DNA from: Candidatus Daviesbacteria bacterium
GTDB taxonomy: Bacteria > Patescibacteriota > Microgenomatia > Daviesbacterales > UBA10151
Length of the DNA: 42,565 nt
Direction of reading: 5' to 3'
Assembly: GCA_016195715.1 (NCBI GenBank)
Contig: JACPZA010000006.1
Location: 1 to 42,565 of the forward strand
The translations under genes were made by a program, and so were the position numbers. A model generated the notes under the pieces. It did no database searches and was not told the DNA's origin. It was given only the letters and a program-made list of their open reading frames with translations. Positions 5,083 through 41,176 of the stretch are shown piece after piece (position 1 is the first letter of the stretch; each line of letters begins with the position of its first letter).

Positions 5083-5734
5083 TCCTGCAGTAATTTAAAT
5101 TAGGAATAAAATTTAGTAATCCCTTTTGGAAAGTTTGATGCACTATACATGGAAATAAATCGTGGCCAAATAGCATAAAGATAGCAAAAAGACCTAGCAT
5201 TAAACTTGCTAAGTTAAAAATATTTTGACTTATAAAACTAACTGTTAAGATGTGTTGGTGCTTTTTTGAGACAGATTGAAAAACTACCAGAAAGTTAAGT
5301 AAAACCGTTATTAAAGGTAAAATCAAAACCACGGTTAAAACTAATACACCCCAAAAAGGACTATTATAAAATGGTTTCATTAGCTCTCTACTGCCTGTTA
5401 GCAAAAATACAGAAGTATCAAGACTCATTAAGGTTATAAATGGCAAAAGTAAAATTAAACTAACCAAAAATATAAATCCATTTGCTCCTAAAACTGATTT
5501 TACATATTTAACTAAACCTAATTTATTTAAAAGCTCAAAATGTTGATCCAAAGTGCTTTTTATCACATCTAAAATTAAGTGAATCCAAAATCCTAAACTA
5601 ATATCTTTCTTTTTTTCTAACTCTTCTTGATATAAATCTTCAAAAAGTAATTTCATCTCACCTCCATACTCATTTCTATATGGCCTGGGATAAAAACTTA
5701 ATAATAGTTCATAAAATAATTTTGCAGTGCTCAT
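5072..5734 (-). CDS. Membrane protein partner of a PadR regulator (permease-prefix-like N terminus)
   Basis: LLLSFYPRPYRNEYGGEMKLLFEDLYQEE resembles the N-terminal segment of PadR-linked permeases; several TM segments; 4-nt overlap with the upstream PadR gene. Confidence 0.65.
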   Translation of the reverse strand: MSTAKLFYELLLSFYPRPYRNEYGGEMKLLFEDLYQEELEKKKDISLGFWIHLILDVIKSTLDQHFELLNKLGLVKYVKSVLGANGFIFLVSLILLLPFITLMSLDTSVFLLTGSRELMKPFYNSPFWGVLVLTVVLILPLITVLLNFLVVFQSVSKKHQHILTVSFISQNIFNLASLMLGLFAIFMLFGHDLFPCIVHQTFQKGLLNFIPNLNYCRINS

Positions 5735-6111
5735 AAAGCTAAATTTAATTCTATTTTTGGAAAAATATTAAAAGCTTTGGCAACTTTTAAAGCCTGAGAA
5801 AATCTTTCCAATTCTAAATTTAAAAACTTTCTACCTTTTTTGGTTAATTGATAGTATCTTCTCCTGTCCTCCGTAGCCTTGGCGAAGGAGGGTCTTACTT
5901 CAATGATTAATCCCTCCTCAACTAGTCTCTTAATGGCTCCATATAAAGTTCCTGGACCCAAATTTATTTTGCCTTTAGAATCCTCAGAAACTTTTTTCAT
6001 AATTTCATAACCATGTAATTTTTTAATACTTAGCGCTAAAAGAATGTGAAAAATAGCTGGGGTTAGTGGCTCATCTTTAGAAAACTGTTTTTGTTTACTC
6101 ATTAAAACCAT
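5731..6111 (-). CDS. PadR family transcriptional regulator
   Basis: ILLALSIKKLHGYEIMKKVSEDSKGKINLGPGTLYGAIKRLVEEGLI...RRRYYQLTKKGRKFL. Confidence 0.9.
   Translation of the reverse strand: MVLMSKQKQFSKDEPLTPAIFHILLALSIKKLHGYEIMKKVSEDSKGKINLGPGTLYGAIKRLVEEGLIIEVRPSFAKATEDRRRYYQLTKKGRKFLNLELERFSQALKVAKAFNIFPKIELNLAL
5866..5892. repeat. Intragenic palindromic element (encodes PSFAKATED in PadR)
   Basis: CCTCCGTAGCCTTGGCGAAGGAGG imperfect inverted repeat, GC-rich relative to its surroundings, in frame at the PadR wing. Confidence 0.65.
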
Positions 6112-32683: not shown

Positions 32684-33922
32684 TTACTTTTTAAAATACT
32701 TTTTTCCCTTAAGTTTTTCTGGTAATAAATCTTTATCTGTATACATCTGATAATCTTTTCCATAACCTAAATCTTTCATTAATTTGGTAGGAGCATTTCT
32801 AATATTTAAAGGGATTGGTAAATTGCCATATCTTTTAACATCTTCTAGCGCTTCTTGATAAGCATCATGAGCAGATCTATCTTTCTTAGCACTTGCCAAG
32901 TAAACTACGCCATGTGCTAAATTTAGTTGACATTCTGGATAACCAATAGTTTCACAAGCTCTAAAAACTTCATTTGCTAAAACTAAAGCTGTGGGAGCAG
33001 CCATACCTATATCTTCACTAGCAAAGATCACCATACGTCTTGCTATAAAAAGCGGGTCTTCCCCTGCATTTATCATTCTTGCTAAATAATGTAATGCAGC
33101 ATCTACATTTGATGCTCTCATAGATTTAATAAAAGCTGAGATTGTATTGTAGTGCTCATGTCCAGCTTTATCATATAAAAGCGATCTTTGTTGCAGTGCT
33201 TCCTCAATCAGCCCTTTGTTAACTTGAACTTCTCCATGCGCAGACTTAGTCGAAGAAGAATTATTGTTCGACCGTAGTGGAGAACTACTGACTGCCATTT
33301 CCAATGCATTTAGCATTACTCTTGAATCTCCATTTGAGGCTTCAATCAAAAAATCCTCTGCTTCTTCTTCCAGCTTTATATTTAAATTGCCTAAACCATT
33401 TTCTTTATCCTTAAGTGCTCTGTCTATTATTTTTTTGAGTTCTTCTACAGTTAACTGATTTAAAACAAATACTCTAGTTCTTGATAAAAGCGGTCCAATC
33501 ACTTCAAAACTTGGATTTTCTGTGGTAGCTCCAATTAAAATAATTGAGCCATTTTCTACATATGGTAAAAATGCATCTTGTTGAGCTTTATTAAATCTAT
33601 GAATTTCATCAATAAACACAACTGGTGAATTACTTTCTAATCTCAGTTGATTTTTACTTTTATCTAAAGATTCAAATAATTTTTTTAGTTCAGCAATTCC
33701 AGTTGTGACAGCTGAGAATTCATAAAATTCAGTTTGCAACTCATTAGCTATCACTCTAGCTAGTGTAGTTTTTCCAACTCCTGGTGGTCCCCAAAAAATC
33801 ATCGAAAAAATTTGTTTATTTTTAATGGCTTTATAAAGTAACTTATCAGAATCAAGTAGATGTTTTTGTCCAACAATTTCTTCTAAAGATTTGGGTCTTA
33901 ATAAATCTGCCAGTGGAGTCAT
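32684..33922 (-). CDS. rarA: Replication-associated recombination protein A (RarA/MgsA AAA+ ATPase)
   Basis: PLADLLRPKSLEEIVGQKHLL; WGPPGVGKTTLARVIA; FIDEIHRFNKAQQDAFLPYVENG; ALQQRSLLYDKAGHEHYNTISAFIKSMR. Confidence 0.96.
   Translation of the reverse strand: MTPLADLLRPKSLEEIVGQKHLLDSDKLLYKAIKNKQIFSMIFWGPPGVGKTTLARVIANELQTEFYEFSAVTTGIAELKKLFESLDKSKNQLRLESNSPVVFIDEIHRFNKAQQDAFLPYVENGSIILIGATTENPSFEVIGPLLSRTRVFVLNQLTVEELKKIIDRALKDKENGLGNLNIKLEEEAEDFLIEASNGDSRVMLNALEMAVSSSPLRSNNNSSSTKSAHGEVQVNKGLIEEALQQRSLLYDKAGHEHYNTISAFIKSMRASNVDAALHYLARMINAGEDPLFIARRMVIFASEDIGMAAPTALVLANEVFRACETIGYPECQLNLAHGVVYLASAKKDRSAHDAYQEALEDVKRYGNLPIPLNIRNAPTKLMKDLGYGKDYQMYTDKDLLPEKLKGKKYFKK
33227..33287. repeat. 61-bp palindromic element inserted in rarA
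   Basis: Outer arms TTCTCCA/TGGAGAA, inner arms GTCGAA/TTCGAC; the half 33261-33287 closely matches the folD-side repeat at 39490-39517. Confidence 0.7.
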
Positions 33923-36005: not shown

Positions 36006-36040
36006 CGTCATTGCGAAACCACGAAGTGGCGAAGCAATCT
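36006..36040. repeat. Left inverted repeat of GIY-YIG unit 1 (copy B)
   Basis: CGTCATTGCGAAACCACGAAGTGGCGAAGCAATCT, ends immediately before ATG at 36041. Confidence 0.85.
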
Positions 36041-36337
36041 ATGCTAATAAAACAGTCTTTTGTTTACATTTTAACTAATAAACTAAATACAGTTTTGTAC
36101 ACTGGAGTTACTAGTGATTTGGTAAGGAGAATCTATTAACACAAACAAAAATTAGTTCAGGGCTTTAGTGCTAAGTATAATTTAAATAAGCTTATCTATT
36201 ATGAGGTATTTGAGGATATCACAGAAGCAATTAAAAGGGAGAAACAAATAAAAGGTGGTTCAAGGGCAGACAAGTTAAAACTAATTAAGGTTTTTAATTC
36301 CAATTTTAAAGATTTATATGATGAAATAGTCAAATAG
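36041..36337 (+). pseudogene. GIY-YIG (URI-type) endonuclease with one in-frame TAA
   Basis: My translation: MLIKQSFVYILTNKLNTVLYTGVTSDLVRRIY*HKQKLVQGFSAKYNLNKLIYYEVFEDITEAIKREKQIKGGSRADKLKLIKVFNSNFKDLYDEIVK*; stop at 36137-36139. Confidence 0.88.
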
Positions 36338-36369
36338 ATTGCTTCGTCGAGGTCTCCTCGCAATGACGG
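36336..36369. repeat. Right inverted repeat of GIY-YIG unit 1 (copy C)
   Basis: AGATTGCTTCGTCGAGGTCTCCTCGCAATGACGG, overlapping the TAG stop codon. Confidence 0.85.
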
Positions 36370-38678: not shown

Positions 38679-39524
38679 CTATGGGATAGATTTAACGGCA
38701 TCAACTACATTTTCCATTAAACAAATAACAGTCATTGGTCCAACGCCACCAGGAACTGGAGTGATTTTAGAAGCTTTAGGCAAAACTGATTCAAAATCGA
38801 CATCACCTACTAGCTTTCCATTAACTTTTTCAGCTCCTACATCTACTACCACCACGCCACTTTTAACCATCTCCCCTTTTAAAAGCCCTGCCACACCTGT
38901 TGCAGAGACTATTACATCAGCTTGTTTGGTTATTTCAGTTTGATTTGGTGTGCTTTTATCACAAATAATAACTTTTGCGCCTTTTTTTTCTAACTCTTTA
39001 GCCACTGGTTGTCCCACCAATCTGCTAGCTCCCAAAACCACGGCATTAACCCCTTCTAATTTAACTTCTGCATCCTGCAAAATCTCCATTATTGCTCTAA
39101 CAACTGCTGGTAAAAAAGGGCTATTGCTTGTTAGACCATCAACGTCTTTTTTTTTATTAATTAAATTTAAAAGTTCATATTTATCATAACCTTGTAAAAG
39201 CTCCCCTGGGATAGGTAGTTGAATCATAATCCCATTTATTTTAGGATCATCATTCAACTGTTTTATTAGATCAACAACTTTTTCATAATCTTCGGTGGCT
39301 GGGATTCTAGTAGGTTGAAAATCAATCCCCACCTCAAGAGCTTTTTTTTGCTTCATATTGGTATATAAAACTGAAGGTGGATCATCTCCAATTAAGATGC
39401 TCACTACTTTGGGTTTTATGTTTAACTTAGCCAGCTTTTGCTTAACTTTTTCCTGATGGAGTTGAGCTAGTTTTCTACCATCAATAATTTTATTGTTCGA
39501 ACGATTAGTGAGAACTAAATCCAT
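38679..39524 (-). CDS. folD: Bifunctional methylenetetrahydrofolate dehydrogenase/cyclohydrolase FolD
   Basis: KIIDGRKLAQLHQEKVKQKL; IPATEDYEKVVDLIKQLNDDPKINGIMIQLPIPGEL; KKDVDGL; VLGASRLVGQPVAKEL; TPVPGGVGPMTVICLMENV. Confidence 0.96.
   Translation of the reverse strand: MDLVLTNRSNNKIIDGRKLAQLHQEKVKQKLAKLNIKPKVVSILIGDDPPSVLYTNMKQKKALEVGIDFQPTRIPATEDYEKVVDLIKQLNDDPKINGIMIQLPIPGELLQGYDKYELLNLINKKKDVDGLTSNSPFLPAVVRAIMEILQDAEVKLEGVNAVVLGASRLVGQPVAKELEKKGAKVIICDKSTPNQTEITKQADVIVSATGVAGLLKGEMVKSGVVVVDVGAEKVNGKLVGDVDFESVLPKASKITPVPGGVGPMTVICLMENVVDAVKSIP
39490..39517. repeat. 3' inverted repeat of GIY-YIG unit 2 (inside folD N-terminus)
   Basis: TTATTGTTCGAACGATTAGTGAGAACTA; inverted partner at 39801-39828. 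Confidence 0.7.
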
Positions 39525-39784
39525 AATGCTTCCTTCTTTTGTCTACTAAAATCTTTTAACTGAATCTCTCTTTGTCTAGCTTGATCTAGACTATTAAATT
39601 CCTCAACATAACATAATCTCTTGAAACCATGTTTACTTGTAAATCGTGAACCTTTGCCACTTTTGTGCTGCTCCATTCTTTTTTCTACATTCCAAGTTGT
39701 TCCTGTATAATAAAAGCCGTCCAAGCACTCGACTATATAAACATACCATTTCCACCCTTTAAATTTGCTGCTCGAACTATTCAT
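39515..39784 (-). CDS. GIY-YIG (URI-type) endonuclease domain protein, intact
   Basis: MNSSSSKFKGWKWYVYIVECLDGFYYTGTTWNVEKRMEQHKSGKGSRFTSKHGFKRLCYVEEFNSLDQARQREIQLKDFSRQKKEALWI; start moved from 39838. Confidence 0.9.
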   Translation of the reverse strand: MNSSSSKFKGWKWYVYIVECLDGFYYTGTTWNVEKRMEQHKSGKGSRFTSKHGFKRLCYVEEFNSLDQARQREIQLKDFSRQKKEALWI

Positions 39785-39800
39785 GATGAAATTATTTATA

Positions 39801-39828
39801 AACTTCTCAGCTACGCTTCGAAGAATAA
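39801..39828. repeat. 5' inverted repeat of GIY-YIG unit 2
   Basis: AACTTCTCAGCTACGCTTCGAAGAATAA. Confidence 0.65.
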
Positions 39829-39856
39829 AACCAAGCATAGATGCAAAGTCTTCATT

Positions 39857-41176
39857 TTATGGAACAGGATATTTTTGGCAGAAAATTTTTACTTCTTTGG
39901 CAATTCTAAGTAACTTTTTATTCTTCACCACTTCTGTTTTAAACTTTCGCCAAACTTCCAATCTTTTTTCTTTATCCTCAGGTAACTCATTACCAGCAAC
40001 CTCATCTATTACTTGATTCATCCAAGAGGCAATTTTGACCATCTCCACCTCTTTCATTCCCCTGGTGGTAATAGCTGGTGTACCAAGTCTTATTCCAGAC
40101 GTCCAGTAGGGTGGCAATTTATCAAATGGTACTCCATTTTTATTTAAAACAATCCCAGCTACTTCCAAAGCTAACGCAGCCATTGCACCGTTTACCTTTT
40201 TGTTTGTTAAGTCAATTAATATTAAATGATTATCCGTTCCTCCACTACTTAAATTAAAACCATATTTTATTAATTCTGAAGCTAATTTTTGAGCATTTTT
40301 AACAATTTGGGCTCCATATTTTTTAAATTGGGGGGTGGAGGCTTCTTTTAGCGCAACTGCAATAGCAGCAGTCTGATTATCATGGGGTCCACCTTGCATG
40401 CCAGGAATTGTGGCGGTTTCAATTAATTTTGGTAGATCAGGATTTTTCTTTAAGCCTTTATCTGTAATTAAAATCATCGCTCCTCTTGGACCACGCAAAG
40501 TTTTATGCGTAGTTGTTGTAATAACGTGAGCGTATGGAACTGGGGATGGATGTACTCCTGCAACAATTAATCCAGTTACATGAGATACATCAGCCATTAA
40601 ATAAGCTCCTACTTTGTCAGCAATTTCCCCAAATTTTTTAAAATCATAAATTCTCGGATAAGCTGTAAAACCACAAATTATTAGTTTTGGTTTTTCTTTT
40701 AGCGCTAGCTTTTCAATAGCCTCATAATCAAGTTCTCCATCTTTGCCTAAAGTGTAATGAACTGGAGTAAAAAATTTAGCTGATAAACTTAACGGGCCAC
40801 CATGAGTAATATGCCCACCAAAATCTCTAGAGAGCCCCATTAATTTATCTTTATAATCAAGCAATGCTAGATAAACTATCGAATTAGCTGGCGAACCAGA
40901 TAGCGGTTGAACATTGACATATGGGACATTAAAAAGTTTTTTTGCTCTCTCAATTGCTAAAATTTCCACCTCATCAGCAACCGCGTTTCCTTGATAATAT
41001 CTTTTTTTAGGAAAGCCCTCTGAATATTTATTAGTTAAAACTGAACCTAGCGCTTCTCTAACCGCTCTTGATGCATAATTTTCCGAAGCGATCATCTCCA
41101 AAACTTGCACTTGACGTTTAGCTTCTAAATCAATTAATTTAGCAATTTCAGGATCAGTTGAATTTAGTTTGCTCAT
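39857..41176 (-). CDS. glyA: Serine hydroxymethyltransferase
   Basis: IASENYASRAVREALGSVLTNKYSEGFPKKRYYQGN; VQPLSGSPANSIVY; DVSHVTGLIVAGVHPSP; TTTTHKTLRGPRGAMIL. Confidence 0.97.
   Translation of the reverse strand: MSKLNSTDPEIAKLIDLEAKRQVQVLEMIASENYASRAVREALGSVLTNKYSEGFPKKRYYQGNAVADEVEILAIERAKKLFNVPYVNVQPLSGSPANSIVYLALLDYKDKLMGLSRDFGGHITHGGPLSLSAKFFTPVHYTLGKDGELDYEAIEKLALKEKPKLIICGFTAYPRIYDFKKFGEIADKVGAYLMADVSHVTGLIVAGVHPSPVPYAHVITTTTHKTLRGPRGAMILITDKGLKKNPDLPKLIETATIPGMQGGPHDNQTAAIAVALKEASTPQFKKYGAQIVKNAQKLASELIKYGFNLSSGGTDNHLILIDLTNKKVNGAMAALALEVAGIVLNKNGVPFDKLPPYWTSGIRLGTPAITTRGMKEVEMVKIASWMNQVIDEVAGNELPEDKEKRLEVWRKFKTEVVKNKKLLRIAKEVKIFCQKYPVP

Follow-up and report, generated by a model that had tools for sequence, protein, structure and literature searches.

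The window, a stretch of 42,565 nucleotides from a Candidatus Daviesbacteria genome, contains a small GIY-YIG nuclease gene standing between two palindromic arms. We consider it fairly probable, though well short of settled, that arm, nuclease gene and arm make up a selfish element resembling the REPtrons, in which the nuclease cuts the arms and so drives their copying. As far as sequence alone can establish it, the arms are real hairpins, are specific to a clade of nucleases and co-occur genome-wide with the nuclease. Binding and cutting of the arms by the nuclease, and copying driven by that cutting, are inferred and have no biochemical evidence behind them. The unit and its neighbours are arranged as follows.

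38679..39524, minus strand: folD, the gene downstream of the unit
39490..39517, minus strand: downstream arm ('G arm'), TA-GTTCTC-ACTAATCG-TTCGAAC-AATAA (minus strand)
39515..39838, minus strand: solitary GIY-YIG nuclease ORF, an open frame of 107 aa
39801..39828, minus strand: upstream arm ('C arm'), TTATT-CTTCGA-AGCGTAGCT-GAGAAG-TT (minus strand)
39857..41176, minus strand: glyA, the gene upstream of the unit

An earlier note on this DNA had placed an inverted repeat at 39801-39828 and 39490-39517, around one GIY-YIG gene whose TAG stop forms the first bases of the 3' repeat. Both repeat sequences were found exactly there, and they bracket a single intact ORF on the minus strand (PF01541, E=1.6e-15, Pfam). 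Translation probably starts at 39784, giving a protein of 89 aa, and the TAG (39515-39517) does supply the first three bases of the 3' repeat, so that the stop codon of the nuclease is the beginning of the downstream arm. The upstream arm can be drawn as a CTTC/GAAG hairpin with an internal GA/GA mismatch. The downstream arm reaches into folD, the start codon of which lies just before the arm, within the end of the unit. This arm codes for FolD residues 3-12 (LVLTNRSNNK), and the first ~12 residues of FolD (MDLVLTNRSNNK) derive from the end of the unit.

At this one locus the inverted repeat (local alignment score 40) had p=0.003 against dinucleotide shuffles and p=0.005 against native windows with equal spacing. 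The shuffled controls proposed by the earlier note thus bore it out only in part: the repeat is moderately unusual, but some shuffled and native controls equal it, a few native places in the window among them. Since p is only 0.003-0.005, a one-locus repeat is insufficient evidence, and a chance inverted repeat beside an ordinary gene might be read into these values. That explanation is virtually excluded, being refuted by the retention of the arms in homologues whose synonymous sites are saturated and by the existence of a genome-wide arm family. Close homologues without the repeats would have counted against the pairing; the closest homologues have both arms. On the comparative data, the decisive evidence for the window arms is this conservation in homologues and not the single-locus repeat. 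An exact-type search of the source genome found no second copy of the 22-nt arm core at ≤3 mismatches, because the core varies and gapped patterns are required; a generic repeat search of the window also did not detect the arm family, which gapped patterns revealed.

The closest relatives of the window nuclease (78–79% identical) come from Curtissbacteria. More broadly, the closest nucleases (53–82% identical) were found in metagenome assemblies of Curtissbacteria, Daviesbacteria, Roizmanbacteria, Berkelbacteria, Doudnabacteria, Kerfeldbacteria, Uhrbacteria, Liptonbacteria, Komeilibacteria, Levybacteria, WWE3, Omnitrophota and Stahlbacteria. The window nuclease belongs to clade 1, comprising 28 sequences (support 100) from many CPR groups together with Omnitrophota and Stahlbacteria. 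Most close relatives have an upstream flank of the form TATTCTTCGA-core-GAGAAGT and a downstream flank of the form TAGTTCTC-core-TCGAACAATA. Arms of this family (type A) were scored as TTCGA..GAGAA and TTCTC..TCGAA palindromes within about 150 bases of the gene. By this rule 21 of 27 clade 1 genes have type A arms on both sides and 2 of 27 on one side, while the remaining 4 carry related palindromes, e.g. CCCTTCGAC..CAGGG or CCCCGAGCTTGTCGAGGGG. Type A arms were found beside none of 42 other GIY-YIG genes (UPF0213/YhbQ kind) and beside 3 of 963 other ORFs from the same loci, each of these three neighbouring a unit. The third, UPF0213/YhbQ-like group of GIY-YIG genes, many of them beside tRNA genes or in Firmicutes, is without such arms; another armless group of GIY-YIG genes (L016, L018, L294 and L296) directly adjoins tRNA-like sequences.

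Arm types were mapped onto a tree of 133 GIY-YIG domains and compared with 500 shuffles. Type A required 4 changes versus 20.7 in the shuffles, and type B, described below, 2 versus 10.7; in neither case was any of the 500 shuffles as low. Clustering nucleases with their flanks, as the earlier note had recommended, thus showed repeat families following nuclease clades. Its wider suggestion of a general nuclease-repeat pairing stands insofar as arm types are clade-linked; it is not universal, since the UPF0213/YhbQ-like group lacks arms. In an independent draw of 287 genomes across the phylum, a few of which were already in the first set, all 10 newly fetched members above 110 bits had arms or a variant palindrome, and a group at 70–83 bits had no type A arm pair. 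The clade 1 nuclease usually occurs once per genome. Under the strict pattern, at most one C arm was present in 6 of the 11 nuclease-positive genomes drawn; for several of these six the reason is that the arms are variants.

In the genomes checked, no two clade 1 units share neighbours apart from those of G012 and G034, and annotated phages and plasmids yielded only nuclease relatives below 45% identity. Among individual loci, one in G034 (C5:2500-7000, L109) has three tandem GIY-YIG ORFs within 1 kb. A unit of G138 (L190, L274), a genome with 37 C arms, has its nuclease ORF broken by an in-frame TGA. In a Curtissbacteria locus (L187 3-2891), a UvrD-like helicase with an intein splicing domain adjoins a clade 1 unit.

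The arms conform to the consensus STTC-GA-core-GA-GAAS, which forms a stem interrupted by a GA/GA mismatch. When neither end position was fixed in the search, the outer stem pair was complementary in 141 of 142 arms (69 expected); for the inner pair the count was 136 of 142 (77 expected). These counts are inflated by the relatedness of the arms. All four pair types (G-C, C-G, A-T and T-A) are nevertheless seen at stem positions, a variety at one position that would be hard to account for without pairing. As judged from this covariation, each arm is a hairpin backed by compensatory changes; the claim rests on covariation and not on energy, since the folding energies of single arms are weak. Outside one arm end AATA/TATT is conserved (AATA, 81–96% per base). 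The ends of a unit can be told from each other, since most upstream arms are of the C...G kind and most downstream arms of the G...C kind.

The nuclease has the fold and the catalytic Tyr, Arg and Glu of the GIY-YIG superfamily. Residues Y16, Y26, R36 and E73 are invariant in 27 clade 1 members, and with synonymous sites saturated and pN ~0.15 the gene is evidently under purifying selection. A fold model (pLDDT 89.6) matched UPF0213 best and Slx1 next. Slx1 is a branched-DNA nuclease. The model fits a structure-specific nuclease acting on hairpins or cruciforms, an activity that is predicted only.

In 27 relatives glyA lies next to folD, mostly with 0–160 bases between them, and none of these 27 has a GIY-YIG gene at that position. 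By comparison with them, the window nuclease gene is an insertion in a conserved glyA-folD operon. In G030 the same junction (L058) holds an ORF-less pair of type A arms in the opposite orientation, and in G026 it holds a Y1_Tnp (IS200-like) gene (L044 2398-3078) flanked by inverted repeats of the CACCTCGG type; this junction is therefore a permissive site. The G026 gene shows that Y1 enzymes occur among relatives, and Y1 (RAYT-type) transposases could in principle move the palindromes, with the GIY-YIG gene as cargo or repair accessory. This is improbable, because the repeats of the G026 gene differ from type A arms, and no Y1 gene was found between type A arms in the loci examined, as against 21 of 27 clade 1 GIY-YIG genes.

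Type A arms also occur away from the nuclease gene. Across 45 genomes, gapped pattern searches recovered 66 arms of the C kind and 58 of the G kind, with few in reversed-pattern controls. The arms pair in both orders, most commonly as a G arm, 2–12 bases and a C arm. In Daviesbacteria the mean number of solo arms was 8.8 in 9 nuclease-positive genomes and 0.78 in 36 negative ones (p=4e-5); in the 287 CPR genomes it was 6.7 and 0.27 respectively (p=2e-6). ORF-less arm pairs are ~11-fold commoner in genomes that hold the nuclease. Five genomes (G032, G009, G245, G067 and G188) have several solo arms each with no clade 1 nuclease found. The inner stem pair of solo arms matched that of the genome's own unit in 12 of 13 arms in G138, 7 of 12 in G024, 4 of 6 in G003 and 2 of 2 in G034; in G004 only 2 of 10 matched. 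In the source genome of the window the unit has A-T, and its solo arms have C-G or G-C (one G-T), none of six matching, so that the window nuclease is probably not the maker of its genome's solo arms. On this evidence those arms fit an older nuclease, and the window unit, which groups with Curtissbacteria units, was probably imported from a Curtissbacteria-like source.

One ORF-less pair lies in the window itself.

33228..33286, minus strand: ORF-less arm pair in rarA, G arm 33286-33264, C arm 33257-33228

These 59 bases are in frame in rarA (32684-33922), encode SSPLRSNNNSSSTKSAHGEV and fall in a loop of which the RarA proteins of relatives and of E. coli have a short or different version. 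The loop also looks longer in G029, G012 and G018, perhaps through other palindromic inserts. Pairs in frame in protein genes were found in several ORFs of G003 and in other genomes as well. Elsewhere in the window (5731-6111), a PadR-like ORF holds RPSFAKATEDRRR, apparently encoded by another palindrome (CCTCCTTCGCCAAGGCTACGGAGGAC). Host regulatory hairpins, in which 5' and 3' stem-loops control the resident nuclease gene and mobility plays no part, would account for an upstream arm ending in GAGAAG/GGAGAAG, a plausible ribosome-binding site, shortly before the start codon, and for a stop codon that is often inside the downstream arm. They would not explain why pairs without an ORF stand at many loci, in some cases in frame within a gene, nor why units have unrelated neighbours, and we regard regulation alone as highly improbable. 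Terminator hairpins alone were considered and dropped, as was an intron or intein, no such structure being present and the ORF lying between genes.

Related junctions were found empty, with arms only, or with a nuclease gene. One genus offers such a series at the 3' end of a DUF4012 gene: the site is empty in G038 and G030, holds a lone arm pair in G034 and G032, and in G037 holds the arm pair with the nuclease gene immediately after it. The downstream neighbour in G037 also differs, which indicates a rearrangement there. The junction upstream of dinB is empty in most relatives, and G012 and G034 each have a unit there. The two nucleases are 76% identical, with nearest relatives at 81% and 79% respectively; that these units are not each other's nearest is suggestive only, resting on 73 aligned residues. 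Several empty dinB starts (L314-L343) read TGAGAAC, half of an arm, and this start at a junction used by two units makes a target preference possible. From such comparisons, both the unit and the ORF-less arm pairs are insertions, but neither a target-site duplication nor an exact unit boundary could be defined from the empty sites compared.

The same junctions speak for the main rival. It holds that the gene encodes a free-standing homing endonuclease, a parasite that recognises and homes into palindromes spread by some other enzyme. A nuclease sitting directly on the DUF4012-junction hairpin pair that stands alone in G034 and G032, a glyA-folD junction with a unit in the source genome and only an arm pair in G030, a dinB junction shared by two units that are not closest to each other, and a nuclease usually present once per genome are all in keeping with homing. 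However, solo pairs track the nuclease genome by genome and in several genomes share their arm sub-type with the unit, neither of which is required of a mere homing parasite, and no other mobiliser of type A arms is known. We therefore hold homing to be unlikely, though less so than the other rivals.

Under the preferred, REPtron-like reading, the nuclease would recognise and cut hairpin-forming arms, both its own and those of the scattered ORF-less pairs, probably in their extruded or single-stranded state. The cut ends would then undergo repair or strand transfer, by which arm pairs would be copied to new sites between or inside genes, the whole unit only rarely. As in REP/RAYT systems, one enzyme gene would mobilise many short paired palindromes in trans, with a GIY-YIG nuclease replacing the Y1 transposase. 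Besides the lack of biochemical evidence, what weighs against this reading is the mismatch of inner pairs between unit and solo arms in the source genome, the five genomes with solo arms but no clade 1 nuclease found, the want of a definable unit boundary or target-site duplication, and the six drawn genomes with at most one strict-pattern C arm.

A second unit in the window differs in its repeats, as the earlier note had observed: the unit described above is of type A and this one, unit 1, of type B.

36010..36365, plus strand: unit 1, a GIY-YIG ORF with an internal TAA between GTCATTGCGA-type palindromes (type B)

Unit 1 has type B arms; its interrupted ORF was left out of the tree. Type B (GTCATTGCGA) and type C (GTCATCC[CT]GA) both mark clade 2 (28 sequences, support 99), of which 20 members have type B or C palindromes on both sides. 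Both types carry a GTCAT tag, and GTCAT/CGTC-tagged repeats are abundant in the genomes of relatives; the clade flanked by types B and C may be their mobiliser. That GIY-YIG nucleases form a general class of palindromic-repeat mobilisers (clade 1 with TTCGA/GAGAA arms, clade 2 with GTCATTGCGA and GTCATCC[CT]GA) is a tentative proposal, towards which we lean slightly more to doubt than to belief.

In REP/REPIN-RAYT systems (REPtrons), the enzyme gene is flanked by hairpins and is usually single copy (PMC3116915, PMC3733652, PMC8266576). The type A units share with them short imperfect hairpins in inverted orientation around an enzyme gene, dispersal of the same hairpins in trans as inverted pairs, a mismatch conserved in the stem, a tetranucleotide that is conserved at one end and covariation of enzyme clades with repeat families. 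They differ in that the enzyme is a GIY-YIG and not a Y1/HUH transposase, the tag is AATA/TATT and not GTAG (GTA precedes GTTCTC in only 38 of 121 G arms), and pairs also occur in frame inside genes. In-frame palindromes in unrelated protein genes are likewise known from the Rickettsia palindromic elements and CGTC REPs (PMC10969869, PMC3733652). CGTC repeats have no dedicated transposase, and the RPE sequences of R. conorii carry the CGTC tag (PMC3733652). Type A arms carry AATA and no CGTC tag; the GTCAT-tagged types B and C look closer to the CGTC superfamily, whose printed consensus did not enter into the comparison.

Free-standing GIY-YIG homing endonucleases of the T4 Seg type are small, horizontally mobile genes between host genes. 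The type A unit is similar in being a small, horizontally mobile GIY-YIG gene inserted between host genes; in contrast, its flanks are dedicated palindromes with copies in trans, and only the empty, solo and occupied series is seen, not recombinational homing into an empty allele. The closest solved proteins in sequence and fold are UPF0213/YhbQ (1zg2, 1ywl) and Slx1. Unlike the window nuclease, Slx1 is a subunit of a eukaryotic complex, and the UPF0213-like genes sampled lack flanking arms, as counted above. In the literature searched, which did not extend to preprints and most subscription journals, no paper was found that pairs GIY-YIG genes with REP-like repeats.

Bacteria widely carry short palindromes, both within genes and between them, but in the literature consulted only those of the RAYT type have a known dedicated enzyme. 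A clade bracketed by one palindrome family, and predicting spare copies of it, offers a concrete enzyme and substrate. Arm insertions visibly alter host proteins, namely the FolD start, the DinB start and the RarA loop. If the wider proposal were true, GIY-YIG nucleases would be the missing enzyme for repeat families described as lacking one, including elements inside protein genes. The pattern points to a kind of mobile element, so far overlooked, that would spread by means of a GIY-YIG nuclease; if the nuclease does move the hairpins, some of the smallest bacterial genomes would hold a second way of living as REP elements do, unrelated to the first.
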